Source of the DNA: Candidatus Baltobacteraceae bacterium
GTDB lineage: Bacteria; Vulcanimicrobiota; Vulcanimicrobiia; Vulcanimicrobiales; Vulcanimicrobiaceae
NCBI GenBank assembly: GCA_036488875.1
Contig: DASXGW010000013.1
Span: 231,281 to 295,280 of the forward strand
Direction of reading: 5' to 3'
Length of the DNA: 64,000 bases
Shown here one piece after another: positions 7,462-28,408 of the stretch. How positions within the stretch are numbered: position 1 is the first letter of the stretch; each line of letters opens with the position of its first letter. The position numbers were made by a program, and so were the translations under genes. The notes beneath the pieces are model-generated. The model did no database searches. It was not told the DNA's origin and worked only from the letters and a program-made list of their open reading frames with translations.

Positions 7462-7833
7462 ATGCACTTGATCGTTCGCTTTATCGTCAACGCAGTAGCG
7501 TTGTACTGCATCGCACGATTCGTGCCCGGATTCAATCACAACATCACGGTGACGTCGGCGGTCATCGCCGCCGTCATCTTTGGCCTCGTCAACGCGATCC
7601 TCGGTCCCATTCTGCGGTTCATCACCTTCCCGATTACGTTCCTCACGCTCGGGCTGTTCTCTATCGTCGTGAACTTCATACTCTTCGCGATCGTCGTCAA
7701 GGTCTCGCCCGGTTTCTACACGACGGGCCAGATCAGCTGGTGGTTAGCGGATCTCTACGGCGCGATCATCATGATGATCGTTTCGACGTTCATGCACGCG
7801 GCCACGCGACCGCCGGAAGGCGCGACGCGCTAA
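7462..7833 (+). CDS. YvlD-like small membrane protein (phage holin 4 family)
   Basis: A 123-residue membrane protein starting at ATG 7462 after a good AAGGGGG ribosome site. It has four hydrophobic segments: IVRFIVNAVALYCIARFVPG, SAVIAAVIFGLVNAIL, ITFPITFLTLGLFSIVVNFI and a C-terminal segment. The order FGLVNAILGPILRFITFPIT is typical of the YvlD/Phage_holin_4_2 family, known from envelope-stress loci. It lies 23 bp after uvrC. Its last bases overlap the convergent GGDEF-EAL gene. Role unknown. Confidence 0.85.
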   Translation: MHLIVRFIVNAVALYCIARFVPGFNHNITVTSAVIAAVIFGLVNAILGPILRFITFPITFLTLGLFSIVVNFILFAIVVKVSPGFYTTGQISWWLADLYGAIIMMIVSTFMHAATRPPEGATR

Positions 7834-9701
7834 CGCGTTTCGGCGGCTAGCGCGCAGAAACGCTCGAACTCAGGGAGCGCCATCGGGCGCCCCGTCAGAT
7901 ATCCCTGAATGTGATCGCAGCGTGAGTCGGCCAGGATCTCAAACTGCATCCGGCTCTCGACGCCTTCGGCCGTCACTTTCATTCCGAGCGCCTGCGCGAC
8001 CGTGATGAGCGATCGCACGATGGCACGGTCCTCGCGGTGCTCGATGCCGGTCACGAACGTGCGATCGAGCTTGAGCGAGTCGAGCGGGAAGCGCTTGAGG
8101 TAACCGAACGAGCTGTAGCCGGTGCCGAAATCGTCGACGGTCACGTTGACGCCCAGTGTCTTGATCTCGTGCAGGCGTGAAAGAATCTCGTCGACGTAGT
8201 TCATCATCGTCGTCTCGGTGATTTCGATCTCTAGGCCCGACGGGTCGACGCCGCTTTCGCGCAATACGTGCTCGAGGTCGTGAAGAAACTCCGGATGCGC
8301 GAGCTGGTGTGCCGAGATATTGACGGCAACGGTCATCGGTACGCGAGCATCCTGCCAGGTGCGCAGCTGCGCGCACGCCGTGCGCAGAACCCACAGTCCG
8401 ATGGGCACGATCAGCCCGCTGTCTTCGGCGATCGGAATGAACTGATCGGGATCCAGAAGCCGGCCGTCGGGTTGACGCCAGCGCAGCAGCGCTTCCGCTC
8501 CGACGATGCGCGTCGTCGTCGTTTCGACGATCGGCTGGTAGTAGAGCTCGAGGCTGCCGTTCTCCGGCGCTTTGCGCAGCTCGCTACGAATTTGTTGGCG
8601 CAGCAGCGCCGCTTGATGCATCTGCGGCTCGAAGAACGTGTAGCGCGGGCCGTTGGGCTCTTTCGAGCGATACATCGCGGCGTCGGCGTTGCGAATGAGC
8701 GTGTCACCGTCCACGCCGTGCTCGGGCGAAATCGCGATGCCGATACTCGCCGACACTACGAACTCGTACTCATCGACAAACAGCGGCTCGCTAACCGCAG
8801 CGATGAGTCGTTTGGAGAGGTCTTCGGCGGCCGGCGCGCCGTCCGCCGCGGGAAGCGCAACGACGAACTCATCGCCGCCCCAACGCGCGAGCAGTGCGTT
8901 CGGCGGCATGACCGAACGCAGTCGCAGCGCGAGGGCGTGGAGCAGCACGTCGCCGACTGCATGTCCCAGCGTGTCGTTGACGTCTTTGAAGCGGTCGAGA
9001 TCGAGGAAAAGCACCGCGCACTGGGAGCCGTGATTGGTTCGCAGGCTCTGCTCCAGGCCTTCCATGAGCGTCTGACGATTCGGCAGTTCCGTGAGCGTGT
9101 CGAAGTGCGCCAGGCGGTCGAGGTGCTCTCTCATGCGAAGCGCTTCGAACCGGCTCTTGAGCTCGTTGTACTGAATGCGAATGCGCAGAGCACCGATCGT
9201 GACCGCGATGACGTAACCGCTCGCCACAATCGCCAGCGCGACGATGTTTGCCGGCTGCGTCAATACGCCGGCCCAGACAGAATAGAGGAGCTCGGTGACG
9301 CACGCGACGACCGCCGTGGCGACGAGATACGACGTGCGATAAAACGCCTGCTGAACGCCGACGGCGACCAGTAGGCTGGCCGCGATGTAATACGGATGAT
9401 TGCCGCTATCGACGACGAGAATCGGGACGACGATCGCGACCGGCAGCATATTGACCAGCTGCAGTTCGGCCGAGTGGCGCCGAAGCGCCGGGAAGGCGAG
9501 TACGGCCAGGGCGACCGTGGCCGAGACGGCCGAAGCTGCCAGCCGCAAGGTCAGCGAGTCGGGTGGCATGCCGGGGATCGCCAACAAGACGAAGTGGAAC
9601 GCCGGCAGCAAAACCACGATCAAGGCGCTGTAAATCCACAGCGTCGCGGTCGCAGTACGCTGAAGCCAAGGCCTATAAAGGCCTGGTTCGAAGGAAGGCA
9701 T
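7830..9701 (-). CDS. Membrane GGDEF-EAL protein (c-di-GMP turnover)
   Basis: A 623-residue protein with about six hydrophobic segments in residues 15-175, a short coiled linker, a GGDEF domain at roughly 190-355 and an EAL domain at 370-615. The cyclase signature is intact (RWGGDEFVVAL near 270) and so is the phosphodiesterase signature (GAEALLRW near 400, followed by DDFGTGYSS). The protein could therefore make or degrade cyclic di-GMP. The membrane module resembles MASE-type sensors, but its ligand is unknown. Start ATG 9701, close to the divergent tmRNA. The two domains are clear; net activity cannot be read from sequence. Confidence 0.93.
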   Translation of the reverse strand: MPSFEPGLYRPWLQRTATATLWIYSALIVVLLPAFHFVLLAIPGMPPDSLTLRLAASAVSATVALAVLAFPALRRHSAELQLVNMLPVAIVVPILVVDSGNHPYYIAASLLVAVGVQQAFYRTSYLVATAVVACVTELLYSVWAGVLTQPANIVALAIVASGYVIAVTIGALRIRIQYNELKSRFEALRMREHLDRLAHFDTLTELPNRQTLMEGLEQSLRTNHGSQCAVLFLDLDRFKDVNDTLGHAVGDVLLHALALRLRSVMPPNALLARWGGDEFVVALPAADGAPAAEDLSKRLIAAVSEPLFVDEYEFVVSASIGIAISPEHGVDGDTLIRNADAAMYRSKEPNGPRYTFFEPQMHQAALLRQQIRSELRKAPENGSLELYYQPIVETTTTRIVGAEALLRWRQPDGRLLDPDQFIPIAEDSGLIVPIGLWVLRTACAQLRTWQDARVPMTVAVNISAHQLAHPEFLHDLEHVLRESGVDPSGLEIEITETTMMNYVDEILSRLHEIKTLGVNVTVDDFGTGYSSFGYLKRFPLDSLKLDRTFVTGIEHREDRAIVRSLITVAQALGMKVTAEGVESRMQFEILADSRCDHIQGYLTGRPMALPEFERFCALAAETR

Positions 9702-9776: not shown

Positions 9777-10131
9777 GGGGCTGAAATAGGTTCGACAGGG
9801 AGATCCGTGGTCGGCGTCAGCAGGCGGAGTTGCGAGCCCTCCTTAAACGATCGCAACGGCAATATCTGCCAACAACGAATACGCACTGGCTGCCTAATTT
9901 AGGTTAGTCACCGGACGCAGAGGGTCGGCCCGAATCGCTCTGCCCTCCGGTCAATAACTCGGGCTGGTGCGAGCGCGTGATTCGACGCTCGTACGAGAAA
10001 AAGGGTCTGCAGCGCGCGGTAAGCCCCGCTTTGAGGCGTACGCGCGATCAAGTTAAAATCGAAGCTGAGCCTGGAGAACGCGCCGGTTAGGCTTTCTGGA
10101 CTCGGGGGGCAGTACCCCGACAGCTCCACCA
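9777..10131 (+). ncRNA. ssrA: Transfer-messenger RNA (tmRNA)
   Basis: A 355-nt one-piece tmRNA. The 5' end GGGGCTGAAATAGGTTCGAC is the conserved tRNA-like half. The 3' end has a T arm in CTCGGGGGGCAGTACCCCGA and acceptor CAGCTCC, with ACCA encoded; the acceptor pairs with GGGGCTG. The tag frame reads GCC AAC AAC GAA TAC GCA CTG GCT GCC TAA, giving ANNEYALAA, a normal ALAA-ending degron. It rescues stalled ribosomes with SmpB and marks the products for proteolysis. Its last 69 nt are duplicated at 13136-13204. Confidence 0.95.
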
Positions 10132-10172
10132 AAACTTCAATCTATCGGTTGTTGATCCCGAGTAAACGCGAC

Positions 10173-10196
10173 GCACTAGTTCGTTAGAACTAGTGC
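10173..10196. repeat. Perfect inverted repeat downstream of tmRNA
   Basis: GCACTAGTTC and GAACTAGTGC are exact 10-bp arms around GTTA. No T tract follows. In the second copy of this flank (near 13243-13258) the left arm is mostly kept, but the sequence similarity ends inside the right arm. The hairpin therefore marks a rearrangement boundary. Confidence 0.75.
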
Positions 10197-10256
10197 CGAT
10201 TGCGCTTACAAAAATCAGCGGAAGCCCGGCAACATTGTGCGAAGGGGAAGCCCGGC

Positions 10257-10835
10257 ATGAGTTCTTTCCTTCCAGCACCGAGAATGTTCGAGAGTTATGG
10301 CATCCGCTCGACCGATTTGCTGTGGACCGGTCGACCCGCGAGTGGATTGAGATTTCATCGCAACGATGCGCTCTACGTTCCTTTTAGCCTAATGTGGGGC
10401 GGATTCGCGATCTTTTGGGAGACGATGGCCGTCAGCATCGGTACGCCCTGGTTTTTTAAGCTGTGGGGCATTCCGTTTGTCCTCGCTGGCCTTTACATGA
10501 TTGCCGGTCGATTCTTTGTCGACGCATACCGTCGTAGCCAAACCTGGTATGGAGTGACGTCCGATTCGGCGCTCATCTTGCGTCAAGGCTGGGCCGGAAA
10601 ACTTCAACGACTCTACCTGCCCAGCATCAATAAAATCGATCTTGAGCTCGCGCCGGCGGGGACCGGCACCATAACGTTTGGCGACGCGCCCGCAGCGACG
10701 TGGTTCAGCGGTAGGCAGAACTGGTCGGGAGGGCCTGATGCTCCATCATTCGAGGGTATCGGCGAGGCGCAGAGGGTCTACGACCTATGCGTTAAGGCTC
10801 AACGATCTTCCGCCGCTGCCATGCAGCCGGCTTAG
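10257..10835 (+). CDS. Membrane protein with PH-like domain
   Basis: A 192-residue protein starting at ATG 10257 after GAAGGGGAAG; an upstream in-frame extension has no ribosome site. There are two hydrophobic helices (YVPFSLMWGGFAIFWETMAV and WGIPFVLAGLYMIAGRFFV), then a beta-rich region. The stretch YGVTSDSALILRQGWAGKLQRLYLPSIN resembles bacterial PH (bPH/DUF304-like) domains that follow paired helices. Function is not known. It is the first gene after tmRNA inside the rearranged segment and probably stands alone. Confidence 0.65.
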   Translation: MSSFLPAPRMFESYGIRSTDLLWTGRPASGLRFHRNDALYVPFSLMWGGFAIFWETMAVSIGTPWFFKLWGIPFVLAGLYMIAGRFFVDAYRRSQTWYGVTSDSALILRQGWAGKLQRLYLPSINKIDLELAPAGTGTITFGDAPAATWFSGRQNWSGGPDAPSFEGIGEAQRVYDLCVKAQRSSAAAMQPA

Positions 10836-10898
10836 TTCAATCAAGCACGCGGCTAGCGCATTTTTGGATTTAGAAAAGCTCAGAGATCGTTCAACTGA

Positions 10899-11609
10899 AT
10901 GAATTCGCTGTGCGCGCGGGTCATCACCGCAATCACCGTCACCGCATCGCTCACCGGGTGCTCGAGAACGGGAGCGATCGTTCCCGGCGCTTCGCAGCAG
11001 CCACCCGTAATGCGACAACCACTCGTTTCAATTCCAAGCGTAGCGCGAGAAGCCGCCGCAAGTTCTCCCTGCGACTTCAAAGGAAATTTTGACCTCCACG
11101 GTTCCTGTATCAAATATGCCATGCAGAAAAAGGGAACGACCGTAGCCCTCGCTGCCTACCATGGTATCGCGCTCACGATGCTATGGCCGCCGCCCAATCC
11201 GCCACTATCCAACACCTTTGTCAGTGGGGACGCCACCGGCAACGGAGACATCACGGGAGCCTATCACGGAAGCCGATTCCCGAAGTACGGCTCGGTCAAG
11301 TGCATCGACCCTTTCTTTCACCCGATCACCTGTCCGGGTAAAGCGTTTCTCTACAGCTTCACGTTAAACGCGACGTCGTTTGAGATCGGTTTCCACACCT
11401 CACCGAAAATGAAAATAACGAACACCCGGCCATATCCTGGAACCAAGTGCATCATCGCCAACCTCGAGCACCTCAAAACGTGGGTATGGCAAATCCTCAA
11501 CATGCCGTACGCGGAGCCGGTCGGCGGCAGGCTCTCGATAAGGAGTGGCCCCCCTCTCACTTTTTCGGGTTCCGGAGGAGCATACTTTTTTGCCTACGTC
11601 TGCAAATAG
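10899..11609 (+). CDS. Hypothetical lipoprotein
   Basis: A 236-residue protein of no recognised family. The N-terminus MNSLCARVITAITVTASLTGC has a short hydrophobic stretch and a lipobox (LTGC), so it is probably a diacylglyceryl-modified lipoprotein. The mature part contains paired cysteines (SPCDFKGNFDLHGSC, KCIDPFFHPITC) and is likely beta-rich and extracytoplasmic. Its 3' end overlaps the convergent lnt gene by 16 bp. A lipoprotein next to a lipoprotein-modifying enzyme may be functional or chance. Confidence 0.6.
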   Translation: MNSLCARVITAITVTASLTGCSRTGAIVPGASQQPPVMRQPLVSIPSVAREAAASSPCDFKGNFDLHGSCIKYAMQKKGTTVALAAYHGIALTMLWPPPNPPLSNTFVSGDATGNGDITGAYHGSRFPKYGSVKCIDPFFHPITCPGKAFLYSFTLNATSFEIGFHTSPKMKITNTRPYPGTKCIIANLEHLKTWVWQILNMPYAEPVGGRLSIRSGPPLTFSGSGGAYFFAYVCK

Positions 11610-13039
11610 GCGAACAGCGGCGGTCGTGGAGCGCTGCGATGGAACATTCCAACGCCGGCACAAACGAGCGTGAAGGCAACGCAGAGCCAGTCGAACGAAT
11701 CGCCGATTGACAGATAGAGACTGTGGCCGGGGCCAAGCGGCACGTCGGCTACAATCGCGCGCACCAAGCCTGTATCTGACGCGGCCGAGGCGATGACACG
11801 GCCGTTCGCATCGGTAACCGTCAAGAGTCCGAAGCGCGACGCCCTAACTACCGCGAAACCGTCTTCGACACCACGCATGATCGCGAGTCGCGCGTGCGCG
11901 TCCACGTCGAGGCTGAAGTCGAGGGCCGGCACGAAGACAACGTTGATATCGCGACCGCGAACGTCGTTCCTCACTCCGTGCGGATAATCCATGTCTTTGC
12001 AGATCTCGACGGCTTGGCCGTCCCCGATGATACCCGGCGTGGTTCCGGCCGGGTAGTTCTCGAAACCCAGCAGCAAGCGTTGCTTGACGTATCGAAGCAT
12101 CGATCCGTCGGGCCTAAAAACTAATGCGACGTTTTGTACTTCCGTTCCGTGCTCTTCAAAACCGGCGATCAACGTCGTTTTGGTTACGCGGGCGCTCTGG
12201 CGGAGCACCTCGTATACCGGAAGCCATTGGGGTTGAATCTCCGCAGCCTTTTCTGAGAACACGACGACGTGTGCGCCTTGCGCTGCTAATTGTGTCGTCA
12301 ACCTAGCATAGCTGCGAGCGATGCCAAGCGTTTGCGCTTCGGTCCAGCCAAAGCGCACTCGATCGTCTGCGGCGGCCGCAACGCGGTATCGCGGCGGCGC
12401 CGGCCCGTCGAGTCGAACGAAACCGAACGCAACGTTGGCAAGCACAAGTGAGGCCGCTATGACCGCCGGCCAAAGCGCGCGGCGTGGTTCTCGTGCAATC
12501 ATCGCGATGGCATTTGCAACGACGCAGATAAGAAACGTCACGCCGCCTAACCCGACCAGGGCTGCGCTTTGGATGAGCACCGGAACGAAAGTCTGGCTGT
12601 AGGCGATCGACCCATACGATCCGTTCGGCGAAAGGTGCGTAAACGCGAACTCGAACGCCGTCCAGTATGCCGGAAATACAAGTATGGCGGCCGCGGGCGG
12701 TAGTCGTCGGTAAGCCAGCCGCGCGAGCAACACGCCGGCGGCGAATGCGGCCGAAGTCACCACCAATAGGACGGCCAGAGTGGCCGCCATGATTCCGTAG
12801 GCTTCGAACAGCGTAAGCTGCCCGAGCGCAAACGCCGCAAACGCCGCTGCCAAGACTTGCCACGACCGAGCCCGGCCGTATGCGAGCCATAACACCGGTG
12901 TGGCGGCGAGCCATGCTAACGGCCAAATGGACCCGAGATTCGTCGAGAAAAAGAACAGTGCGCCGCTGGCGATCGCGCACATGCCGGCGGTTATGGCGCT
13001 TCTCGCACCCACGGATGTCATCGTTACGAACATACCCAC
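11594..13039 (-). CDS. lnt: Apolipoprotein N-acyltransferase-like protein
   Basis: A 481-residue protein with about six membrane segments in residues 10-205, followed by a nitrilase-fold (carbon-nitrogen hydrolase) domain. The catalytic triad positions are visible: Glu in VVFSEKAAE, Lys in LRYVKQRLLLGFENYPAG, and Cys in VEICKDMDYP. Lnt N-acylates the lipidated N-terminal Cys of lipoproteins in the cytoplasmic membrane. The sequence around the Cys (CKDMDYPHGVR) differs from classic Lnt, so another acyltransferase of the family is possible. It lies inside the segment bounded by the duplicated tmRNA end and could be an accessory copy. Confidence 0.8.
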   Translation of the reverse strand: MGMFVTMTSVGARSAITAGMCAIASGALFFFSTNLGSIWPLAWLAATPVLWLAYGRARSWQVLAAAFAAFALGQLTLFEAYGIMAATLAVLLVVTSAAFAAGVLLARLAYRRLPPAAAILVFPAYWTAFEFAFTHLSPNGSYGSIAYSQTFVPVLIQSAALVGLGGVTFLICVVANAIAMIAREPRRALWPAVIAASLVLANVAFGFVRLDGPAPPRYRVAAAADDRVRFGWTEAQTLGIARSYARLTTQLAAQGAHVVVFSEKAAEIQPQWLPVYEVLRQSARVTKTTLIAGFEEHGTEVQNVALVFRPDGSMLRYVKQRLLLGFENYPAGTTPGIIGDGQAVEICKDMDYPHGVRNDVRGRDINVVFVPALDFSLDVDAHARLAIMRGVEDGFAVVRASRFGLLTVTDANGRVIASAASDTGLVRAIVADVPLGPGHSLYLSIGDSFDWLCVAFTLVCAGVGMFHRSAPRPPLFAYLQT

Positions 13040-13050
13040 CCTCTCAATCT

Positions 13051-13129
13051 ACGATCTGGGTACATCCAGATTAATGCGCGTCGTGTTGATTCCGGGATGG
13101 AACGAGAGCGGGAAAGGCATGCCGGTCTT
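13051..13129 (+). repeat. Duplicated 5' fragment of the lipase-like gene
   Basis: These 79 bp match 13929-14007, the start region of the intact hydrolase gene, at 77 positions. The match includes about 20 bp of upstream sequence (GATCTGGGTACATCCAGATT) and the first 18 codons. It ends abruptly 6 bp before a tmRNA 3'-end copy. It now encodes only a chimeric 29-codon frame (13074-13163) that runs into the tmRNA fragment. Confidence 0.9.
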
Positions 13130-13135
13130 CGAGGG

Positions 13136-13258
13136 AGCTGAGCCTGGAGAACGCGCCGGTTAGGATTTCTGGAGTCGGGGGGCAGTACCCCGACAGCTCC
13201 ACCAAAATTCGACTCTATCGGTTGATCCTGAGAAAACGCGATGCACGAGTTCGTTAGA
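13136..13258 (+). pseudogene. tmRNA 3'-end fragment plus downstream flank (duplicate)
   Basis: Positions 13136-13204 equal 10063-10131 of tmRNA, 69 nt with two substitutions, including the full T arm, acceptor 3' strand and ACCA. The next 54 bp resemble the tmRNA flank (10132-10188) at clearly lower identity with a 3-bp gap. The tag-coding region and 5' half are absent, so this cannot be a functional tmRNA. It marks a duplication or attachment-site copy. Confidence 0.88.
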
Positions 13259-13270
13259 AAGCACCGCGTT

Positions 13271-13762
13271 TTAAACGATGCAGCGGGTTCCGTTGACGAT
13301 AACGGCGGTGCCACCGAGGCCGTCGGGATACCAGCAGAACCTGACCATCGTATTTCTGGGTCCCGAGTTCCGCACTACCCACGCAGTATGGACCTTCTTC
13401 GTGAACTGGATATCGAACTTTCCGCCCGGCGCTCCCGTGTAAGTCGTGTAGTACACCGACTGCCGTGTCAGGCACCGGCCGCCGGCGCTCGTGGTGATCC
13501 TCACATCCGCGGTGCGTTGCGGGCGGATCGACATCTCGGGCGGAATGCGGCTCATGCACTGGCTGCCGAACGATTTCAGGTGAATCGTCGAGCGCGTGTA
13601 GTTGAGATACACGAAAACGTACGGTAGGTGGGGATGCAGTGCGGCGTCCTGTGCCGGTATGACGGCTCGATCGCCGCTCGACGTGATGGGGCCGCTGCAA
13701 GCGACGGTGAGGCTTACTAGCAGAAAAAGAACGCGCGTCATCAATCGTCGAGTGAACGTCAT
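13271..13762 (-). CDS. Hypothetical lipoprotein
   Basis: A 163-residue protein. The start ATG 13762 is chosen because it follows GGGAGGAGG at a good distance and begins a clear signal peptide, MTFTRRLMTRVLFLLVSLTVAC, with lipobox-like TVAC. The mature part has several cysteines (QCMSRIPP, RCLTRQ, RFCWYP, TRCIV) and beta-strand-like segments. No family is recognised. It is isolated between the tmRNA fragment and the divergent hydrolase gene. Confidence 0.55.
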   Translation of the reverse strand: MTFTRRLMTRVLFLLVSLTVACSGPITSSGDRAVIPAQDAALHPHLPYVFVYLNYTRSTIHLKSFGSQCMSRIPPEMSIRPQRTADVRITTSAGGRCLTRQSVYYTTYTGAPGGKFDIQFTKKVHTAWVVRNSGPRNTMVRFCWYPDGLGGTAVIVNGTRCIV

Positions 13763-13928
13763 AAGAGTTCCTCCTCCCGCTTTGCTTCCGTAGCATATGA
13801 AGGCGTCCTTCACCGTCGCCGAGTTCGAGTTCGATGCCGTAGATTCACGCCAAATCTACCGACAGGTCTTTCTCGCAAAGGGCTCTGCCGGGATGCGGGT
13901 TTGCCAGTTCGCGGGAATTCTGGTGCGG

Positions 13929-14007
13929 ACGATCTGGGTACATCCAGATTGATGCGCGTCGTGTTGATTCCGGGATGGAACGAGAGCGGGAAAGGCATGC
14001 GGGTCTT
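13929..14007 (+). repeat. Intact-gene copy of the 79-bp duplicated segment
   Basis: Partner of 13051-13129 (two mismatches). It spans the upstream region and the first codons of the intact lipase-like gene. The sequences before 13051 and before 13929 are unrelated, so the left border of the repeat is sharp. Confidence 0.9.
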
Positions 14008-14764
14008 TGCGGAAGGCCGCAATGGGTTGCCGGGGTTGGCGGCAGTTGGGTACGAGTGCGTGTCGTTCGACGGCGGCAGGGGCGGCCTGAACGAACGGAT
14101 CGATCAGCTCGCGGAGTTTCTGTCAGGCGTGCGTGCCAACGGAAACTCGGGCGACCCTACGCTCCTTTTCGGTTACAGCGCCGGCGGAATCATCGCACGT
14201 GGGTTGATGCGCTCGCGACAAGCGTCAGAATGGAAGATCGGCGCGCTCTTCCAACTCGGCGCCCCAAACGGCGGTATCGTCACCGACCATGTCGCCGGGC
14301 TGCTGCACCGGATCCATTTCTCCATGGACGTCATCGAGGATCTGGATTTGGAGTCGCCCTTCATGCAGTGGCTCAACGGCACGGCCGGTCATTGGGAGAC
14401 GGACTCTGCTACGCATGAAAAGCACTGGCGTCCGAATAAGAAGCCGTGGGTTACGGCTCGCGACGTACCGATTCTCAATCTCATTGGACGCGTTCCACGC
14501 TACCGGCATCTCACCGACGGCGTCGTCTTCGTCGATTTAGCGACTCTCGGCGGGCACGTGCCCCATGCGTTCGTCGACGATCCGCGAGCCAATCATCTCA
14601 ACCTTAGCGGCAGCTGGAACCCAATGACCCTCACGTTGCGCCGCTGGTTCTGCGACGATCGCCTATGGCCAAAAGCGGTCGACGCCGCCGCGCGGTTTTT
14701 CTCGGGCGCCGGGTTCCCGGCGGCTAGAGAGGCGAAATCCAGCGCCGCCATCAAAACGTCCTAG
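13952..14764 (+). CDS. Alpha/beta hydrolase, lipase-like
   Basis: A 270-residue protein beginning MRVVLIPGWNESG, a typical first strand and oxyanion loop of alpha/beta hydrolases. The nucleophile elbow is FGYSAGG (G-x-S-x-G), followed by FQLGAPNGG. The acid may be in VVFVD, and a His lies near GGHVPHAFV. It could be an esterase or lipase; the substrate is unknown. There is no signal peptide, so it is probably cytoplasmic. ATG 13952 is preferred over upstream TTG starts because the conserved fold begins there. It is separated by 2 bp from the ABC-F gene, so likely cotranscribed. Its first 18 codons are duplicated at 13074. Confidence 0.8.
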   Translation: MRVVLIPGWNESGKGMRVFAEGRNGLPGLAAVGYECVSFDGGRGGLNERIDQLAEFLSGVRANGNSGDPTLLFGYSAGGIIARGLMRSRQASEWKIGALFQLGAPNGGIVTDHVAGLLHRIHFSMDVIEDLDLESPFMQWLNGTAGHWETDSATHEKHWRPNKKPWVTARDVPILNLIGRVPRYRHLTDGVVFVDLATLGGHVPHAFVDDPRANHLNLSGSWNPMTLTLRRWFCDDRLWPKAVDAAARFFSGAGFPAAREAKSSAAIKTS

Positions 14765-14766
14765 CC

Positions 14767-16587
14767 TTGGAACTGTTGCGATTTTCGGACCTCGAGTGTC
14801 ATTACGGGGCGCGCGAAGTCTTCGCCGGTGCGACCGGTGTTTTCAACGATGGCGAGCGGATCGGCCTGGTCGGTGCGAACGGCGCAGGAAAGACGTCGCT
14901 ATTACGCCTGCTCGCGGGCGTCGAGCCCCCGTTCGGTGGGAAGATCGTTAGGGCGAAAGACGTTCGGCTCGGCTATCTCGCGCAGGGTGTCGCCGATGAA
15001 ACCGAATCTACGCTGCAAGAACTGATCGATCTGGCGCTTGCGAAGGTCGACGCGGAATCGTGGGCGCAGCGCAATAAAGCGCTGCACGTCATGTTAGCGG
15101 CATTCGGCTTTACACCGGCCGAATACCAGCGCCCGCTGCGCGCCTTTTCCGGCGGTCAGCGAGCCAAGGCGGCGCTTGCACATCTTTTGATCGACGAGCC
15201 GGACTTCTTCCTTCTCGACGAGCCGACCAACCATCTCGATATAGGGACGGTGCGATGGCTGGAAACGTTCATCGCAAACGATCGCCGCGGGTATATCGTC
15301 GTTTCGCACGACCGCTATTTTCTCGATCGAATCGCGACGCGAATTTGGGAAATCGAGCGCGCACGATTGCACGCTTACGCGCCTTCGGCCGCGGCCTATA
15401 CCGCATACGTCGCTCAGAAACAAACGCGACTGGAAGAAGAACGGCGAGCCTATGAACGTTTCGTTGCCGAGCGTGATAAGCGACGCGCGACGATCGCCGG
15501 ATTGCGTACCACGCACACCTCGTCGGACTACAGCCAAGTGCGCAGCCGCGAGAAGCAACTTGCGCGCGTCGAGGCGACGGTAGAAGCGCCGGCACCGGTC
15601 GCAGCTCCACGCGGTATCGCGGTACGGCTGGAGAAGGTGCGCCGCGGCGGCGGGTACGTTTTCGAGACGACTGACGTTGGGAAGTCGTACGCCCGCGCGT
15701 TGTTTTCCAATCTCACCGTCCGCGTTGACCGAGGGGAATGTCTTGCCGTCGTCGGCCCGAATGGGTCGGGGAAGTCGACGCTTCTCAAAATCTTGTCCGG
15801 CGAACTTGCGCCCGATGCCGGCTCGGTGCGGTTCAATCCGGCGGCTCAGGTGGCGTACTACGCGCAAAACTCCCACGAGCAACTCAACATGGACGCCAGC
15901 GCCGTAGAAGCTGTGCTGGCGGCATCCGGTGGGACGAATTGGGAGGCGCGAACGTTGCTGGGGCGCATGCGGATCGGCGGCGACGCGGCCGATAAACCGG
16001 TGCGTGACTTTTCAGGCGGCGAGCGGCGGCGAATTATGCTCGCGTGCCTGACGGCCCGCAAAGCCGACGTTCTGTTGCTCGACGAGCCCACTAACGATCT
16101 CGACATCGATAGCCGCGAAGCGTTGGAAAGCGTTCTGAGCGACTACGCGGGTGCGATCGTCGTCGTGTCGCACGACCGCTTCCTGCTCTCACGATTATGC
16201 GATCGCGTCCTTTGGATCGAAAGCGGACAGTGGGGAATCGTCGAGGGTGCCTACGACGATTACGAAGCATCTCAGCGAGACCGCGAGCGTGCTTCCCTCG
16301 AGCAGACGGCCCCCGACACGGAAGAGCGCCCCAAGACGTCGCGCCAAACGCCGTTGCGGATTCGGTCGCAGCTGCAAACGCGAATCGACCGGATCGAACG
16401 CGAGATCGAACGGCTCGACGCTCGGACTGCCGAAATCGAGGCACTATTCGAACAGCCCGAAGTCAACACCGACCACGTGCGATCGTTAGCGCTAAGTAAA
16501 GAACTCGCCGACGTGCGATCGCAAAGCGGCGAACTCGTCGCACGCTGGGAGTCGCTGCACGCCGAGCTCGAAGCGATGGACGCTTAA
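14767..16587 (+). CDS. ABC-F family ATP-binding protein
   Basis: A 606-residue soluble protein with two ABC ATPase domains and no membrane part. Walker A motifs are GANGAGKT (36-43) and GPNGSGKST; signatures are FSGGQRAKAAL and FSGGERRRIML; Walker B motifs are LLDEPTNHLD and LLDEPTNDLD. An interdomain linker rich in charged residues (about 205-255) and a C-terminal coiled coil (about 520-605) complete the Uup/EttA/YdiF-type layout. ABC-F proteins act on the ribosome as translation factors or give antibiotic protection. TTG 14767 is used as the start because the first beta-strand follows directly. Its stop overlaps that of the convergent gene. Confidence 0.92.
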   Translation: MELLRFSDLECHYGAREVFAGATGVFNDGERIGLVGANGAGKTSLLRLLAGVEPPFGGKIVRAKDVRLGYLAQGVADETESTLQELIDLALAKVDAESWAQRNKALHVMLAAFGFTPAEYQRPLRAFSGGQRAKAALAHLLIDEPDFFLLDEPTNHLDIGTVRWLETFIANDRRGYIVVSHDRYFLDRIATRIWEIERARLHAYAPSAAAYTAYVAQKQTRLEEERRAYERFVAERDKRRATIAGLRTTHTSSDYSQVRSREKQLARVEATVEAPAPVAAPRGIAVRLEKVRRGGGYVFETTDVGKSYARALFSNLTVRVDRGECLAVVGPNGSGKSTLLKILSGELAPDAGSVRFNPAAQVAYYAQNSHEQLNMDASAVEAVLAASGGTNWEARTLLGRMRIGGDAADKPVRDFSGGERRRIMLACLTARKADVLLLDEPTNDLDIDSREALESVLSDYAGAIVVVSHDRFLLSRLCDRVLWIESGQWGIVEGAYDDYEASQRDRERASLEQTAPDTEERPKTSRQTPLRIRSQLQTRIDRIEREIERLDARTAEIEALFEQPEVNTDHVRSLALSKELADVRSQSGELVARWESLHAELEAMDA

Positions 16588-17555
16588 AGCGTCGACTGCA
16601 CTTCTCCGTAGAACGACGGCCACTTGGTCGATGGAACGAGATCCTCCGCGGCGTACCACCAGAAGCCGGCGCGGGTGAAGCGCGTCAAACTCGGCGGAAC
16701 GATCGACATATAGTACGAGAAGATGCTCTGCGCGTCCGAAAGCGAGCCGGTGGTAATGGGGGCAGCCATGCCGATCTCGCCAAAGCCGACCCTGGCGTTG
16801 GGAAAGTCGGCTGCCAAACGCGCGAAAATCTTGTTCCACTGCGCGACGCTGGGCCGCGCACCGTAGTTCCCGGCTTCGTAATACGAAACCAGTACGTAGC
16901 GCAGGCCGCGATGCATCGAAGCCGGCACGTAGGTGCGCTCCCACGAAATCATGTCGTATCCGGGCGTCACCCACTTCGGGACCTGGTAGTAGAGCGTCAT
17001 TTCCGTCGTCAGCCCGCGCGCGCTGACGATGTCGTACATGGCCTTCACCTTCGACATCACGTCGTTCGCCTGGGCGGCGCATTCGTGCGACGAAGGGCAG
17101 CGCACTCTGCTCAGCCATTCGCCATTGACTTCGTTGCCGATCTCCCAGAGATCCGTATCGCTCGCGAGTGCGTTCACGTACGCCTTCGTGCGCGCCTTGA
17201 TTTGAGCGAGCGAATAGCGTTTGATCGAAGAACTGTCGGCCAGTTCGCCCATGGTATGCGCCGATTGGTGCAAGGCGTGCATCCCCGACGCGTAGCACGA
17301 CGGCCCGATTGGATCGAACACCACGCGAACCGTCGGACGATTCAGCGCCTTCACTGTCGCCAGCTCGTCCGAACTCACGCCGCACCGGCTCGAGAGATCG
17401 TCGTAGGTTATGCCGCGCAGGTTCGCAGGCAGCGCGAATGCGTTGCGCGCGGCCACGCCCGGTTGCGGCATTTGAGCGATCGGCGGAGCGCCCGCGGGAC
17501 CGCCAGTGCATGCCGCAACGCCGAGAAGCAAAACGACTGCGATAGTTCTACGCAT
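16584..17555 (-). CDS. Glycoside hydrolase-like lipoprotein (TIM-barrel, clan GH-A type)
   Basis: A 323-residue protein starting at ATG 17555 with signal peptide MRRTIAVVLLLGVAAC and lipobox (VAAC). An upstream extension is not supported. The mature part looks like a (beta/alpha)8 glycosidase. LWEIGNEVNGEW puts a candidate acid/base Glu at residue 142 after Asn141, and VGFGEIGM a candidate nucleophile at Glu260. Such enzymes hydrolyse glycosides at the cell surface; the substrate cannot be deduced. Overlaps the end of the ABC-F gene. A TATAA-like AT-rich patch at 17560-17590 may carry the promoter. Confidence 0.7.
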   Translation of the reverse strand: MRRTIAVVLLLGVAACTGGPAGAPPIAQMPQPGVAARNAFALPANLRGITYDDLSSRCGVSSDELATVKALNRPTVRVVFDPIGPSCYASGMHALHQSAHTMGELADSSSIKRYSLAQIKARTKAYVNALASDTDLWEIGNEVNGEWLSRVRCPSSHECAAQANDVMSKVKAMYDIVSARGLTTEMTLYYQVPKWVTPGYDMISWERTYVPASMHRGLRYVLVSYYEAGNYGARPSVAQWNKIFARLAADFPNARVGFGEIGMAAPITTGSLSDAQSIFSYYMSIVPPSLTRFTRAGFWWYAAEDLVPSTKWPSFYGEVQSTL

Positions 17556-17610
17556 GCAGTTGTATTTATACTCGGGGCGATATGATAACCTTTGCCGGCC
17601 TGTAGTCGTT

Positions 17611-19365
17611 TCACTCTTGTTTGCCGCCCTGGATCCAATCGGCAAAAGCCGCGACCTTTTCTGGTGTCCAAGCGCCGTCGCACGGCATCGTACCAGCTTT
17701 GACCCGCTCGAGTATCGCGTCGGCATGAGCGCTTACGTCGGCATACGCCCACAGATCGAATGCAAATTGCATCGATTTGCGATCGCGCTCTCGAAAAAGC
17801 GCTTTAACGTGCTTGGCGAAACTGACCGGCTCGCCCGGAGCCGGCAAGTCCACTTGAACTTCTTCGTGCGGCGCTAGCGCCGATACACGGCTGCCCGGCG
17901 GTCCGGCGCTGGTGGTCCACTCCCAGTGAGGCATCGGCATGTGCTGCGGAGGCTGCGCGTTGGTCTGCGAGTTTTCAACGGCCAAGCGCGATCCCCACTC
18001 GATGTACGCCTGGAACGCGGAGCGGAACTCGGGATCGTTCGGAAGACCGGATTCACGCGCAGATTGCAACAAGAGCGTGACCCAGCGAGCGCGCATTTCT
18101 TCGGTGAGGCATTTGCCGAGATGCTGCGAGAGCATACGCGGATAGCCGCCGTACTCCGAGCTATAACGTTTTGGGCCGCCGAAGACCTCGCCTAACCACT
18201 TCGCCACTCGTTGCGGATGATCGGCGGACATATTTGCGAACAGCGGTGCAAGCAAATCGTCCGCGGGCACGAATTTTTCGTAAAATAGGCGAGTCATGCG
18301 CGTGAGTGCGGGCAGCCCTCCCGCCCACTCGAAAATCGAAGGCTGGCGGTCCGGCGGCGGTAGGGGATCACGAAACTCGACGTACCAGTGCATCCCGGTA
18401 CAAAATGGTTTATTCTGCGCGTGACCGCACCGGCATAACGCGCAGTGTTCGAAGGACGCACCGGCATTACGAACGACATCGTTGCCTTGGTCGTCACGTA
18501 GCGCAATCGGACCGGTGACGCGATACGGGCCGTCTTTAGAGACTTCAATCGCCGGTTGTCGCCGGCCGTGCCAATTGACATCTGCTCGCGCCTCGACGCC
18601 ATCGACCGCATAGCTCAGAGCACCGGACGGGCAGTCGCGAACCGCGCGAATAATCTCGTCCATGCGGCCGCCGCTCGGCGCGACGAACGGCTCGCTTTTC
18701 GTCCGGAACACCTTGCTCAGGCGGTCGCTGCAGTAGCCGGAATGCTGACACGTGCCGCGATTATCCAAGATCGTGACCTGCTGACCCACGTAGACGTCTT
18801 GGCGGTCCGGTACCCGTTTGGGATCCTTCGCATCATCGAAGCCGATCTTCGCGTGGCTGCCGTCGCAGTACGGTTTGATCGCGGACGCACCGCAACGGCA
18901 AAGAGCCATCTGCGGAAATGCAGACAACGGCTCGCCCAGCCACGTGACCAGGTTCTTTACATTGGTAACTAACAGCGGACCGTTGTGTGAAAGGCGTATT
19001 TCGGCATCTAACCCGTTATAGAGCGCTTCGAGTTCGGCAATGCGTGCCGCGACTGCGTTCGCGTCCGACGACACTTCGGCGCATGCAAGCTGCGCAAGCG
19101 CGGCAGTAGCCTCAAGCAACGCAGTCGGCGGAAGTCCCTCGCGACGCCACGCTGCTGCGCGTTTCGCCAGATCCCATAGCGACTCGGCCGGCTCGTGCGC
19201 GAGCTGAGGTAGATCGTCTTCGCTACCGGCTAGTGCCGTCAATGGGCGAATAACCGAATCATCGAGCCGCGCGGCGACGCCATCGCTGCCTCCATCGTCT
19301 AAAGAAGCGCGCAACCGGCGCACGCCGGAAAGTAGGTCTCTATAGGTCGAAGCGGTTGTGGGCAT
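17611..19365 (-). CDS. Multidomain CDGSH iron-sulfur / truncated haemoglobin fusion protein
   Basis: A 584-residue cytoplasmic protein; ATG 19365 follows AAGGAGAG. The N-terminal helical region (1-130) is of unknown type. The first CDGSH-type 2Fe-2S motif has ligands C156, C158, C167 and H171. A divergent ferredoxin-like segment (C206, C212, C245 in DCPSGAL) follows. The second CDGSH-like motif (C311, C313, C322, H326) has TGMH in place of DGSH. A group-2 truncated globin spans about 343-465 (candidate proximal His415), and the C-terminal tail carries MPCDGAWTPEKVAAFADWI, reminiscent of the end of cytochrome c domains but without CXXCH. Redox sensing or NO/O2 chemistry is plausible but unproven. 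Confidence 0.85.
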   Translation of the reverse strand: MPTTASTYRDLLSGVRRLRASLDDGGSDGVAARLDDSVIRPLTALAGSEDDLPQLAHEPAESLWDLAKRAAAWRREGLPPTALLEATAALAQLACAEVSSDANAVAARIAELEALYNGLDAEIRLSHNGPLLVTNVKNLVTWLGEPLSAFPQMALCRCGASAIKPYCDGSHAKIGFDDAKDPKRVPDRQDVYVGQQVTILDNRGTCQHSGYCSDRLSKVFRTKSEPFVAPSGGRMDEIIRAVRDCPSGALSYAVDGVEARADVNWHGRRQPAIEVSKDGPYRVTGPIALRDDQGNDVVRNAGASFEHCALCRCGHAQNKPFCTGMHWYVEFRDPLPPPDRQPSIFEWAGGLPALTRMTRLFYEKFVPADDLLAPLFANMSADHPQRVAKWLGEVFGGPKRYSSEYGGYPRMLSQHLGKCLTEEMRARWVTLLLQSARESGLPNDPEFRSAFQAYIEWGSRLAVENSQTNAQPPQHMPMPHWEWTTSAGPPGSRVSALAPHEEVQVDLPAPGEPVSFAKHVKALFRERDRKSMQFAFDLWAYADVSAHADAILERVKAGTMPCDGAWTPEKVAAFADWIQGGKQE

Positions 19366-19479
19366 TTTCTCTCCTTGGCACCCTAGAATGTCGGGTCGCC
19401 TCCGTTCGGTTGCGCCCATAATCGCCGGGGCAGGCTAGCTAGCGACGCACTACTAATCCAAAATGCAAAAGGAGCTCCA

Positions 19480-19677
19480 ATGCACGTGATTTTATCAACA
19501 ACGCTCCTCGCGGTTCTCGTCATGCCGGTCTATCCGGAAGCGCAGCCCGGAACTGCAGCGCCTCCGCTAGCTTCGGCGCGCGGGACGCGTTCGATGCACG
19601 GTAAGCGATTCGATGTGGTCGAGTATTGCGTCGACCGCGGCCTCCAACGGTTTGGTATTGCGCCGAAGCTGCGTTAA
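19480..19677 (+). pseudogene. Possible truncated secreted-protein gene (signal peptide only)
   Basis: An AAGGAGCTCCA ribosome site precedes ATG 19480. The first 20 codons encode a signal-peptide-like stretch (MHVILSTTLLAVLVMPVYPE) and then low-complexity sequence. The frame soon runs antisense into the 3' end of the tetR gene (19567 onward). This looks like the leftover start of an exported-protein gene cut by arrival of the tetR operon; chance is also possible. Confidence 0.3.
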
Positions 19678-20214
19678 TACCAACCCGCCCTGAACGGCCG
19701 CAAGCAGCGCCGTCGCCAACCGATCGGGATCGGCATCCCTTCGCAACTGCCCGCCGGCGTGCATCTCGCGCAATCCGCTTCGAATTCCGTCTTCCCAACG
19801 CGAAAACGCTCGGTTGAGGTCGATTCGGAACTCCGGAACGATCTCGACGATTTCACTCGAAAGGGTTCCCAGCGGACAGCCGCCGGCGCAATGCCCCCCG
19901 CGCTGAATGCGCACGAGCAGATCCCGCCATTCGCGCAAGGCCCGCATGCTGTTGAGATGCCCCAAGAACTCTTTTTGTGCCCCGATGACCGCGTCGGTCT
20001 GGTGGGCGATCACGGCGCGCACGAGAGCCATCTTATCTTTAAAGTAATGGTAGAGTTGCGACGAGCTCACTGCGGCCGCATCGCGGACTTCCTCGGTCGT
20101 CGTCCCCGCTACCCCGCGCTCGTGAATGAGGCGGGCGGCCGCGGCCACGATGCGCTCCCGCGTCGCAAGCCCCTTGGGAGTAAAGCTCTGATCTTTGGCT
20201 GTTAGCGTCCTCAT
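19567..20214 (-). CDS. TetR/AcrR-family transcriptional regulator
   Basis: A 215-residue repressor. The N-terminal helix-turn-helix runs from about residue 15 to 62 (ATRERIVAAAARLIHERG, then TTTEEVRDAAAVSSSQLYHYFKDK). The C-terminal ligand/dimer domain includes GGHCAGGCPLGTL, close to the pattern of TetR_C_11-like regulators (QacR/YxaF type). ATG 20214 is preferred because an upstream TTG at 20250 would overlap the operator. It is divergent from the SDR-DUF417-peroxiredoxin operon and probably represses it and itself through the palindrome at 20244-20272. Confidence 0.9.
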   Translation of the reverse strand: MRTLTAKDQSFTPKGLATRERIVAAAARLIHERGVAGTTTEEVRDAAAVSSSQLYHYFKDKMALVRAVIAHQTDAVIGAQKEFLGHLNSMRALREWRDLLVRIQRGGHCAGGCPLGTLSSEIVEIVPEFRIDLNRAFSRWEDGIRSGLREMHAGGQLRRDADPDRLATALLAAVQGGLVLTQLRRNTKPLEAAVDAILDHIESLTVHRTRPARRS

Positions 20215-20243
20215 CGTTCGAAATCGCCCTTTTTGGAGTTGAT

Positions 20244-20272
20244 AATCCAATTTAGCACACTTATATTGGATT
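20244..20272. promoter_or_regulatory. Palindromic operator between tetR and the redox operon
   Basis: AATCCAAT (20244-20251) and ATTGGATT (20265-20272) are exact 8-bp inverted arms separated by 13 bp. They are centred in the 83-bp divergent intergenic region, which suits binding by the adjacent TetR protein. The AT-rich spacer probably overlaps promoter elements. Confidence 0.7.
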
Positions 20273-20297
20273 TACCACTCCAGTTTAAGGAAAGGCA

Positions 20298-21059
20298 ATG
20301 GATAACAACCGCACCCTTCAAGATCTCAACGGCCGTACCGCCCTCGTCACCGGCGCAACCAGCGGCATCGGCAAAGCAACCGCGCTCGCGCTCGCGCGGC
20401 GTGGAGCGCGTGTTCTTATCTCAGGCCGCGACGAAGTTCGGGGTCAATCCGTCGTGTCGGCTATCCGGGCTGAAAACGGGGCCGCCGATTTCTTGCAAGC
20501 GGACCTCAGCGACGCCGATTCTACGCGGAAGCTAGCGCAGCGCGCACTGGAAATCGCCGGTCGTGTCGACATCCTCGTGAATAACGCCGGCGCCTTCCCG
20601 TTCGGGCCGACCGCGCAAACGCCGCCGGATGTGTTCGACGACGTTTTCGCTACCAACGTGCGGGCGCCGTTTATTCTCGTTGGGGAGTTGGCGCCGAAAA
20701 TGGCGGACCGCGGCAAAGGCGCCATCATCAACCTGAGCAGCATGGTCAGTGAGTTTGGTATGGCGGGAATGGCGCTGTACGGTTCGAGTAAAGCGGCGAT
20801 CAATTTGCTTACGAAGGCGTGGGCCGCGGAGTTTGGCCCCAGTGGCGTGCGAGTGAACGCCGTCAGCCCGGGCCCGACTCGCACGGAAGGAACGGCCGCG
20901 ATGGGGGACGGTCTCGCGCAGCTTGCCGCCGCAGCGCCCGCCGGCCATCCGGCGTCTCCTGAAGAGATCGCCGACGCGATCGTCTATCTTGCTTCCGATC
21001 GCGCAAGTTTCGTGCACGGCGTCGTGCTGCCGGTCGACGGCGGCCGAACGGCCGTATAA
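20298..21059 (+). CDS. Short-chain dehydrogenase/reductase
   Basis: A 253-residue classical SDR. The cofactor loop is TGATSGIGKATAL (18-30), with NNAGAFPFG near 95. The catalytic Ser lies in NLSSMVSEFG, and Tyr/Lys in LYGSSKAAI. The C-terminal HGVVLPVDGGRTAV tail is standard. It oxidises or reduces an unknown carbonyl/alcohol substrate with NAD(P). AAGGAAAGG precedes the ATG. It is the first gene of an operon (next gene 11 bp downstream) under the divergent TetR regulator. Such TetR-SDR pairs usually respond to electrophiles or xenobiotics; that is inference. Confidence 0.93.
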   Translation: MDNNRTLQDLNGRTALVTGATSGIGKATALALARRGARVLISGRDEVRGQSVVSAIRAENGAADFLQADLSDADSTRKLAQRALEIAGRVDILVNNAGAFPFGPTAQTPPDVFDDVFATNVRAPFILVGELAPKMADRGKGAIINLSSMVSEFGMAGMALYGSSKAAINLLTKAWAAEFGPSGVRVNAVSPGPTRTEGTAAMGDGLAQLAAAAPAGHPASPEEIADAIVYLASDRASFVHGVVLPVDGGRTAV

Positions 21060-21070
21060 AGGAGCGATCA

Positions 21071-21562
21071 ATGACGACGACAACCCTTCGGAGATCTCGC
21101 ACGACCGACGTAGCCGCTTTCTCAACGAGAGCCGGGTTATGGATCGGACGCTATGGACTAGTCGCGATACTCCTACTTATCGGAGGCTTGAAGTTCACGC
21201 ACGGCGAGGCTTTAGGAATCCAGCCGCTGGTCTCTCACAGCCCGCTCATGTCTTGGATGTACTCGCTGACCGGCGTGGACGGCGTTTCACGCGCGATCGG
21301 TACGATCGAGATCGCGGTAGCGTTACTCATCGCGTCGCGGCCGATATCGGCGATCGCGTCGGCGGCCGGCAGCCTTTTGGCAATCGTCACCTTTCTCACC
21401 ACGCTCTCTTTTCTGCTGAGTACTCCCGGCGTATGGGCACCGGCCTTCCCCGCACTATCGGGTACGGGCGCATTCCTCATCAAGGACCTTTGCCTGTTGG
21501 CCTGTGCCGCGTTCACGGCCGGGGAAGCACTCGCAGCTGCGGCGAGCAAAGGAGCGGTGTAA
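21071..21562 (+). CDS. DUF417 (YkgB/RclC-like) membrane protein
   Basis: A 163-residue inner membrane protein with four hydrophobic segments (LVAILLLIGGLKFTHGEALGI; AIGTIEIAVALLIAS; AGSLLAIVTFLTTLSFLLS; C-terminal DLCLLACAAFTAGEAL). The pattern GGLKFTHGEA...PLVSHSPLMSW and the late TPGVW...GTGAFLIKDL match DUF417. The family includes RclC, part of the reactive-chlorine response of enteric bacteria. Its place between an SDR and a peroxiredoxin-like gene supports an oxidative-stress role. The next start is 2 bp after its stop. Confidence 0.85.
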   Translation: MTTTTLRRSRTTDVAAFSTRAGLWIGRYGLVAILLLIGGLKFTHGEALGIQPLVSHSPLMSWMYSLTGVDGVSRAIGTIEIAVALLIASRPISAIASAAGSLLAIVTFLTTLSFLLSTPGVWAPAFPALSGTGAFLIKDLCLLACAAFTAGEALAAAASKGAV

Positions 21563-21563
21563 C

Positions 21564-22256
21564 GTGTCGTTGGCAGATCAGCTAGCTAAACTAAAGCACG
21601 ATTTCGAGGCAAAAGCACCGCCGGAGACGATAGAAAAAATACACCGAGCTACGGCGGAGCTCGCGCGCTCCGGGATCCTCGAGCGCACGCTGAAGAAAGG
21701 CGATCTCGCTCCCGAGTTCGTGCTTCCCGACGTCAACGGCGTCCCGGTATCCTCGGCGGACCTCCGGCGAAACGGTCCCTTAATCGTCAGCTTCTTCCGA
21801 GGTAAATGGTGCCCGTACTGCAATCTGGAGTTGTCGGCGCTGGCTAAAATCTATCCGCGCGTCAAAGAGCTTGGGGCGGAGCTGGTCGTGATCTCGCCGC
21901 AAAAAAGTGAGTTCAGCGCCGACCTCGTGAAGCCATATCGCATCGGGTTTCCCATACTGCGCGATTTCCACAACGAAATCGCGGAACAATTCGGAATCGC
22001 TTTTACGCTGCCGGAGTATCTCGACGCACTCTACCGTGAGTTCGGGAACGACTCAAAGGCCTGGAACGAGACCGAGGTTTGGCAGTTGCCGATACCGGCG
22101 CGGTTCCTCATCACGCCTGACGGAACGATTGCCGATGCGGAGGTTAACCCGGACTACACCGTTCGACCGGAGCCCGAAACGATTCTCGAGCGGCTCAAAG
22201 CGCTGAAAGCACCGGGAGTCATCCAAAATCCTACGAAGGACGTATTGCGAGCATGA
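21564..22256 (+). CDS. Peroxiredoxin-like protein (AhpC/TSA family)
   Basis: A 230-residue thioredoxin-fold protein. GTG 21564 is chosen since AAAGGAGC lies just upstream and the helical N-terminus starts there. The active site is FFRGKWCPYCNLEL (CxxC), like the PRX-like2/AhpC-TSA subgroup rather than typical 2-Cys peroxiredoxins. The C-terminus includes PARFLITPDGTIADAEVNPDYT. It probably reduces peroxides or thiols in the cytoplasm. It overlaps the next start by 4 bp (ATGA). Confidence 0.88.
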   Translation: MSLADQLAKLKHDFEAKAPPETIEKIHRATAELARSGILERTLKKGDLAPEFVLPDVNGVPVSSADLRRNGPLIVSFFRGKWCPYCNLELSALAKIYPRVKELGAELVVISPQKSEFSADLVKPYRIGFPILRDFHNEIAEQFGIAFTLPEYLDALYREFGNDSKAWNETEVWQLPIPARFLITPDGTIADAEVNPDYTVRPEPETILERLKALKAPGVIQNPTKDVLRA

Positions 22257-23272
22257 AAGCACTTTTTGCGGCGTCTTTCGCCGCCCTCATTTGCGCAGGA
22301 ACCGGCTTTGCGGACGCTGCGTCCGAACCGGCCTCAGCGTTTTTCTTCCCCAGCGTCATCTCGGTCGACACGTCGACGCACACCGCGACGTTTCCGCTTC
22401 GCCGCGGCGAGTCGCACGGACAGACGGTCTGGTACGTCGTCACCGACGCGTCCGACGCCGGAGTAGCAAAGCGTTACGGTGTCGTCTACGCACCCGGCAT
22501 CGCCAAGCTTGGCGATAGCGCGATCGTCGCGGCGACGATGCACAACGGTATCGTAGCGTTTGCCGGTAAGCCCGATTTTTCACCGGAACGCTCGTACGTT
22601 GCCGGAACCGGCGGATTTCCGCCCGCGTCGGCAAAACCCGGCGCGATTGGCGACGACGGGTATTCACCGTTCGTGCGTGTTGATGGTACGGCCGGAGTTC
22701 TCAACGCGCCGATCGTTGCGAGCGGGAACGGACCGTTCGACGTAACGACGCACTCCGATACCGAAGACCGCGTCGTTGCCATCGACACCACTAAAGGTAC
22801 CGTTACTCTCGCGCTGGCGCGTGGATTCTTTAACGGTAAGCCAATCTATTACGTGAGCACCGACGCGTCCGACCCGACCGCCGCAGCAGTCGAGCGCGCA
22901 ACCTACGTGCCGCGCCTAGCGAAGGCCGATTCGGCGGGTGAAATCCCGATCGGTGTCGTTGCCAACGGACCGCAGACCGGCGACGCCGTTCAGGGCTTGG
23001 CATACCTCGCGCTCAAAACGCCAATAGGCGACGATGCCACGGCGGCAAACGCGGCGACGATCGGCTCCCCGTTCAACGTCCTCTCGCTGGTGCCGGATAC
23101 ATCCAAGCCGTATGCGTCCAACGCCTACACGCCGCTGTGGTCGGTATTCGTCGTCGGCGAGGCGCAAAGCAAACGTCTCACCTCATACGCCGACGTCGGA
23201 CCGCTCGCCACGCCCGCGGGATTCGCCGTCAACTGTCCGGCGATCGCGTTGGACACGAGCGGCGGATACTAG
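22253..23272 (+). CDS. Secreted protein with internally duplicated domain
   Basis: A 339-residue exported protein with signal peptide MKALFAASFAALICAGTGFADA. Two similar units are visible. VISVDTSTHTATFPLRRGESHGQTVWYVVTDASD (about 34-67) and VVAIDTTKGTVTLALARGFFNGKPIYYVSTDASD (about 172-205) share order and spacing, each followed by ...YAPGIAKL or YVPRLAKA. This looks like the DUF7482-type proteins annotated in many soil bacteria. No catalytic motif is evident. It is coupled to the peroxiredoxin-like gene by an ATGA overlap, so it belongs to the TetR operon. Function unknown. Confidence 0.7.
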   Translation: MKALFAASFAALICAGTGFADAASEPASAFFFPSVISVDTSTHTATFPLRRGESHGQTVWYVVTDASDAGVAKRYGVVYAPGIAKLGDSAIVAATMHNGIVAFAGKPDFSPERSYVAGTGGFPPASAKPGAIGDDGYSPFVRVDGTAGVLNAPIVASGNGPFDVTTHSDTEDRVVAIDTTKGTVTLALARGFFNGKPIYYVSTDASDPTAAAVERATYVPRLAKADSAGEIPIGVVANGPQTGDAVQGLAYLALKTPIGDDATAANAATIGSPFNVLSLVPDTSKPYASNAYTPLWSVFVVGEAQSKRLTSYADVGPLATPAGFAVNCPAIALDTSGGY

Positions 23273-23279
23273 TCGAGCC

Positions 23280-25686: not shown

Positions 25687-25755
25687 AGGGTCACGTTTGC
25701 CGAGCGATTTTTCCGATTCCTCTGTAGAGAGCTGCCGCGCTTGGCGGCGAACGTT

Positions 25756-26715: not shown

Positions 26716-26815
26716 CCGGGAACCAGATACTGATTCTTTCGCCTACGCGGTCTACCCCGAGCCTTTGCACCACCGAGGGGGCACTCGCACCCAGCTTAAT
26801 GCCCGATTGCGCGCG

Positions 26816-27175: not shown

Positions 27176-27235
27176 TCCCATCCCCCAGACGGCACGAGCC
27201 GCCAGCCACACCGCAAAATCTTGTAGAATGGCGGG

Positions 27236-28356: not shown

Positions 28357-28408
28357 AATCGCCCCGCGTTGGACGGTTTGTGGACGCACCGCGGTTTACC
28401 ATGGGAGC

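Follow-up and report, generated by a model that had tools for sequence, protein, structure and literature searches.

Repeats and genes at the locus

Within the window, i.e. the whole stretch of 64,000 nucleotides that was analysed from the chromosome of a soil-type bacterium, an intact tmRNA gene is followed by an intact gene for an alpha/beta-hydrolase-like protein, and partial copies of both are located between them. The following features were assigned, in the order in which they occur:

9777-10131, plus strand: tmRNA gene (ssrA), intact and CCA-terminated (Rfam RF00023, 127.9 bits, model positions 1-374)
10063-10189, plus strand: left repeat, copy 1, the working tmRNA 3' end and a 58-nt flank bearing a strong hairpin (repeat search, BLAST)
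10257-10835, plus strand: small protein of 192 aa, patchy, in 6 of 99 family genomes including the window's own
10899-11609, plus strand: putative lipoprotein of 236 aa (hydrophobic start followed by Cys)
11594-13039, minus strand: apolipoprotein N-acyltransferase-like (Lnt-like) protein (LNT_N; TIGR00546 below cut-off)
13051-13137, plus strand: right repeat, copy 1, a truncated hydrolase start running into the tmRNA fragment (repeat search, BLAST)
13134-13137, no strand: junction of the hydrolase 5' fragment and the tmRNA 3' fragment (direct sequence reading)
13136-13259, plus strand: left repeat, copy 2, a decayed tmRNA 3' fragment and flank (repeat search, BLAST)
13271-13813, minus strand: second putative lipoprotein of 180 aa, rare, in 3 of 99 genomes at E<=0.001 including the window's own
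13929-14015, plus strand: right repeat, copy 2, the region before the intact hydrolase gene together with its start (repeat search, BLAST)
13952-14764, plus strand: alpha/beta-hydrolase-like gene, intact, 270 aa (weak Abhydrolase_6 and Palm_thioest matches)

The left repeat consists of the last 69 nt of the tmRNA and 58 nt of flank, and its copies are identical in 114 of 127 columns (90%), with one 3-nt gap and an E value of ~1e-44 (BLAST within the window). The original prediction had matched 10063-10131 to 13136-13204 with 67 of 69 positions identical; this match was recovered exactly and extends to 10189 and 13259. The match claimed between 13051-13129 and 13929-14007 (77 of 79 identical) was likewise found in place and continues to 13137 and 14015, the whole right repeat showing 82 of 87 identical positions (94%, E ~1e-34, BLAST within the window). 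Given these E values, both repeats are far beyond chance. Each is present in two copies in total, no further good copy being found in the whole 3.7-Mb genome (15 contigs). A third tmRNA 3' copy bounding a larger island was found neither in the window nor in the genome, and the matches at 24595-24618 (E 0.9 genome-wide) and 63662-63680, which might have been further copies, do not exceed chance.

In each pair one member belongs to an intact gene, while the inner piece is decayed. The tmRNA fragment at 13136-13204 lacks the 5' half, has no 5' partner, and scores 17.2 bits in Rfam, under the cut-off of 47. With the same-genus tmRNA as reference (L048 of genome G001), both differences in the tmRNA part could be assigned to the inner copy, and one of them breaks a GGAC motif that is kept in the relatives' listed tmRNAs. 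Folding of the sequence past the CCA of the intact gene revealed the hairpin (10132-10230, z = -4.1), and the second copy of the left repeat is followed by a terminator-like AAAACGCG...CGCGTTTT. Despite its Rfam score, the gene at 9777-10131 was unreported by ARAGORN.

The first copy of the right repeat is composed of an upstream part of ~22 nt with a small inverted repeat, followed by ~21 codons of the hydrolase. This stub reads into the tmRNA fragment, giving a fused frame of 29 codons before a stop. An R that is retained in the intact gene and in the homolog of the same genus has changed to P in the stub. The inverted repeat, ATCTGG-GTACAT-CCAGAT, is situated directly before the hydrolase start in both copies (13051-13073 and 13929-13951) and represents a possible operator. 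The hydrolase is patchy in the family, being found in 16 of the 60 relatives searched, and one scan of GTDB genome contigs yielded only a 43% homolog in Candidatus Eremiobacterota palsa_1490.

The first interior (10190-13050) encodes the 192-aa protein, the 236-aa putative lipoprotein and the Lnt-like protein, and the second (13260-13928) the other putative lipoprotein. For the 192-aa protein a 'PH-like' label had been proposed, for which little support was obtained: there was no Pfam match, and NCBIfam gave a match to PuhB under the cut-off. The 236-aa protein had no family match in the profile search. The Lnt-like protein was detected at E<=1e-10 in 8 of 99 family genomes, the window's own counted, with no match at this threshold in the same-genus genome. 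The G+C content of the interiors is 58.6% and 59.3%, compared with ~62.5% in the surroundings. Since the genes are rare in the family and the G+C content is lower, both units hold accessory cargo. Searches for a phage or plasmid origin of this cargo gave no match to PHROG, plasmids or viral contigs. Between the two interiors no alignment rose above the shuffled background (BLAST, shuffles), and homology past the repeat ends did not exceed that of shuffled sequences either.

Junction and divergence of the copies

The hydrolase homology runs to 13137 and the tmRNA homology begins at 13136. That the hydrolase start abuts the tmRNA end was correctly predicted; the position was originally given as 13129-13136 and is ~13134-13137 here. 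Both parent sequences have GAAG at this point, whereas the junction today has GGAG. At the corresponding site the same-genus hydrolase reads CGACGAAGGCC / TTCGACGAAGGCC and the tmRNA ATCGAAGCTGAGCC, which makes a common CGAAG (GAAG in the window's own hydrolase) a plausible crossover site. The junction now reads GAGGGAGCTGAGCC, which requires the assumption of one or more later changes, and the exact crossover is therefore uncertain.

Substitutions were counted at 8 of 55 aligned positions in the flank (in addition to the gap), at 2 of 69 in the tmRNA part and at 5 of 87 in the hydrolase part (Fisher p = 0.02 for flank against tmRNA part, p = 0.13 for flank against hydrolase part). Divergence is thus greatest in the flank, where neither copy is constrained. 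Such a pattern would fit one old event, after which selection preserved one copy in each pair, coding or RNA; it would also fit two alleles that had diverged prior to joining.

These differences also bear on the possibility that the assembly fused two strains that carried different cargo. The genome is a draft of 15 contigs with a contamination estimate of 1.96%, and the interiors resemble alternative alleles. However, artefacts of contig overlap yield identical repeats, while the copies found here differ at 10 and 5 positions and by a gap. A mixture bubble of tmRNA-A-hydrolase and tmRNA-B-hydrolase contains no path leading from hydrolase to tmRNA, and the junction sequence is unique with signs of later mutation. 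An artefact is accordingly regarded as quite improbable.

The tmRNA 3' end as a boundary in the family

Variable regions linked to tmRNA are well known. In a pairwise translated comparison of 22 family genomes, 48% of the 5.5 kb upstream of the tmRNA gene was common, as opposed to 1.1% of the 10 kb downstream. The synteny break of the window lies at the tmRNA end in the loci of the tmRNA-bearing relatives that were compared, and the sequence right past the CCA varies even within genera. Towards the same-genus genome the upstream region showed 77% DNA identity, while window positions 10132-30131 were almost unmatched, the matches in this interval being the tmRNA end and a hydrolase located elsewhere. 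In that genome the hydrolase is on a different contig from the tmRNA; this contig is cut off inside the hydrolase gene, and no tmRNA is present in the 3.8 kb upstream of it. Based on the family-wide synteny and the same-genus comparison, the tmRNA end is the edge of a variable region. Genus g24 forms an exception, with a conserved downstream side (G024-G084, 77%). Some sharpness of the break is to be expected, because the tmRNA gene also closes a conserved gene block. A GGDEF/EAL-like gene (7830-9701), situated between the uvrC block and the tmRNA gene, was matched in the same-genus genome and in none of the other relatives compared, so the spot immediately upstream of the tmRNA varies as well.

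Conservation with genome G002 is clear again from ~47-50 kb, and a variable region some tens of kilobases long seems to occupy the window from 10132 to ~47000. This stretch includes a gene (17611-19419) for a predicted protein in which a bacterial globin domain is combined with CDGSH iron-sulphur domains and a divergent 4Fe-4S domain.

Three relatives have a contig end close to the tmRNA 3' end: exactly at the CCA in G001 (C272, L048), 1 base past it in G096 (C73, L121) and 10 nt short of it in G070 (C15, L123). Three genomes with a contig end within 11 nt compare with ~0.1-0.2 expected (p ~0.0002-0.0016, for a count made post hoc), and this suggests strain variation or repeats at that spot. 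Since synteny ends sharply at the tmRNA 3' end and contigs stop there in a few assemblies, turnover or integration at this site is likely.

A rival reading that draws on these observations is that two related elements inserted serially at the tmRNA 3' end; attL and a displaced att would be represented by the 127-nt repeat. The integrase would then have been lost or have acted in trans, and faulty excision would have captured the hydrolase start at the end of an element. The tmRNA gene is a known integration site, tandem ssrA islands occur in Dehalococcoides, some of them without integration modules (PMC3146451), and here the flanks past the CCA differ within genera, while the cargo is patchy and slightly lower in G+C than its surroundings. 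A direct repeat of the gene's 3' end, as found at the far boundary of islands, is also present (13136-13204, 67 of 69). However, it is not confined to an att core with an undisturbed far flank, as it continues for 58 nt past the CCA and is preceded by the hydrolase start. The hydrolase repeat is not predicted by integration: the second hydrolase start is followed by the rest of its gene and not by another att. The earlier remark that no integrase is seen holds for a wider search, no match to PF00589 (tyrosine recombinases) or PF00239 (serine recombinases) being found on the window's whole contig (C13). Neither did the cargo match plasmids or viral contigs, and no displaced tmRNA 3' piece was detected in the downstream arms of 27 relatives (2-52 kb each). 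The second tmRNAs of G095 and G021 are full-length and not fragments, and seem to reflect mixed genomes.

A simple island insertion therefore fits poorly: from it one would expect a single att repeat at the far edge with unrelated DNA to its left and right, and an integrase in at least some copies, whereas two head-to-tail units account for all that was found. We consider serial integration unlikely. The alternative of repeated integration, as originally put forward, gains no support for this repeat pair, while the tmRNA 3' end does act as a variable boundary across the family.

Origin and meaning of the arrangement

The locus is probably an old scar of the tandem-duplication type, with two head-to-tail units that each run from inside the tmRNA to inside the hydrolase. 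Where the distal end of one unit meets the proximal end of the following one, a novel junction fuses the hydrolase 5' part to the tmRNA 3' part, and homology extends inward from both ends, 58 nt past the CCA and ~22 nt before the hydrolase ATG. Such homology is expected of duplicated units, and not of a lone att repeat.

Each unit would have started within the tmRNA, passed the flank hairpin and accessory genes and ended within the hydrolase gene. The hydrolase start of one unit would then have been linked with the tmRNA end of the following unit by an illegitimate exchange, for which we infer from the junction a probable microhomology of 4-5 bp (GAAG or CGAAG). This exchange may have taken place between sister copies, as a tandem duplication with subsequent reciprocal loss of cargo, or between allelic units whose cargo was already different. 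The outer tmRNA and the distal hydrolase would have remained intact, leaving the inner tmRNA end and the inner hydrolase start as relics. The order of these events and the source of the differing interiors are what we infer from the present arrangement.

Duplicated interiors should be alike or leave remnants, and neither was found here. As the interiors have no sequence in common, extra gene loss or an allelic difference must be assumed, and the classification goes no further than two head-to-tail units, which may be sister or allelic. Both routes predict an identical present structure, and the unrelated interiors slightly favour allelic joining. A single tmRNA-X-hydrolase unit was not found in the relatives, where one same-genus genome was compared and its tmRNA contig ends at the CCA. 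The tandem duplication originally predicted is thus upheld in so far as the fused junction and inward homology make a duplication scar the best fit, while its unrelated interiors are explained equally by allelic joining. Similarly, each copy may have lost or gained different genes, as had been suggested, and two already different allelic units fit equally. It is also conceivable, with little probability, that the space between tmRNA and hydrolase serves this lineage as an exchange locus, where alternative accessory cassettes are swapped by homologous recombination through the tmRNA end and the hydrolase start, without an integrase, and that two of them were caught in tandem.

Bacteria commonly undergo spontaneous duplication where the junctions share short homology. 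In Salmonella, experimentally verified spontaneous duplications gave a deduced cut-off for junction homology of at least 11 bp, and beside this value a microhomology of 4 bp is short, which is a point against a duplication scar (PMC3411829). As in these spontaneous tandem duplications, the window has head-to-tail units joined at a short common sequence and one intact copy of each end gene; in contrast to them, its scar is old, its interiors are unrelated and its junction homology is shorter, with 4-5 bp (PMC3411829). The tandem ssrA islands of Dehalococcoides are inserted in the T-loop and show 20-bp repeats, serine recombinase modules and multiple copies (PMC3146451). The window shares with them a variable region behind the tmRNA, a direct repeat of the 3' end with conserved flank, accessory genes and, with some of them, the lack of an integrase; it differs in its 69 nt plus 58 nt of flank, its two copies, its lack of any integrase and the partner repeat of the hydrolase start (PMC3146451). 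Islands and prophages also leave tmRNA 3' fragments, with a truncated 3' end downstream of the intact gene as seen here, whereas the homology in the window passes the gene end and the end of a second, unrelated gene is co-duplicated.

The locus is a real and ordinary scar of known kinds rather than a new system at work. We propose no active function for it; its effect is limited to extra genes placed behind the tmRNA. It is a clear case of a single illegitimate exchange beside tmRNA giving rise to decoy fragments of an essential RNA gene. Such a decoy tmRNA 3' piece can mislead annotation, as well as island finders that take displaced tmRNA ends as att sites. As a family-wide synteny break, the tmRNA 3' end is useful for the mapping of variable regions in this under-studied phylum.
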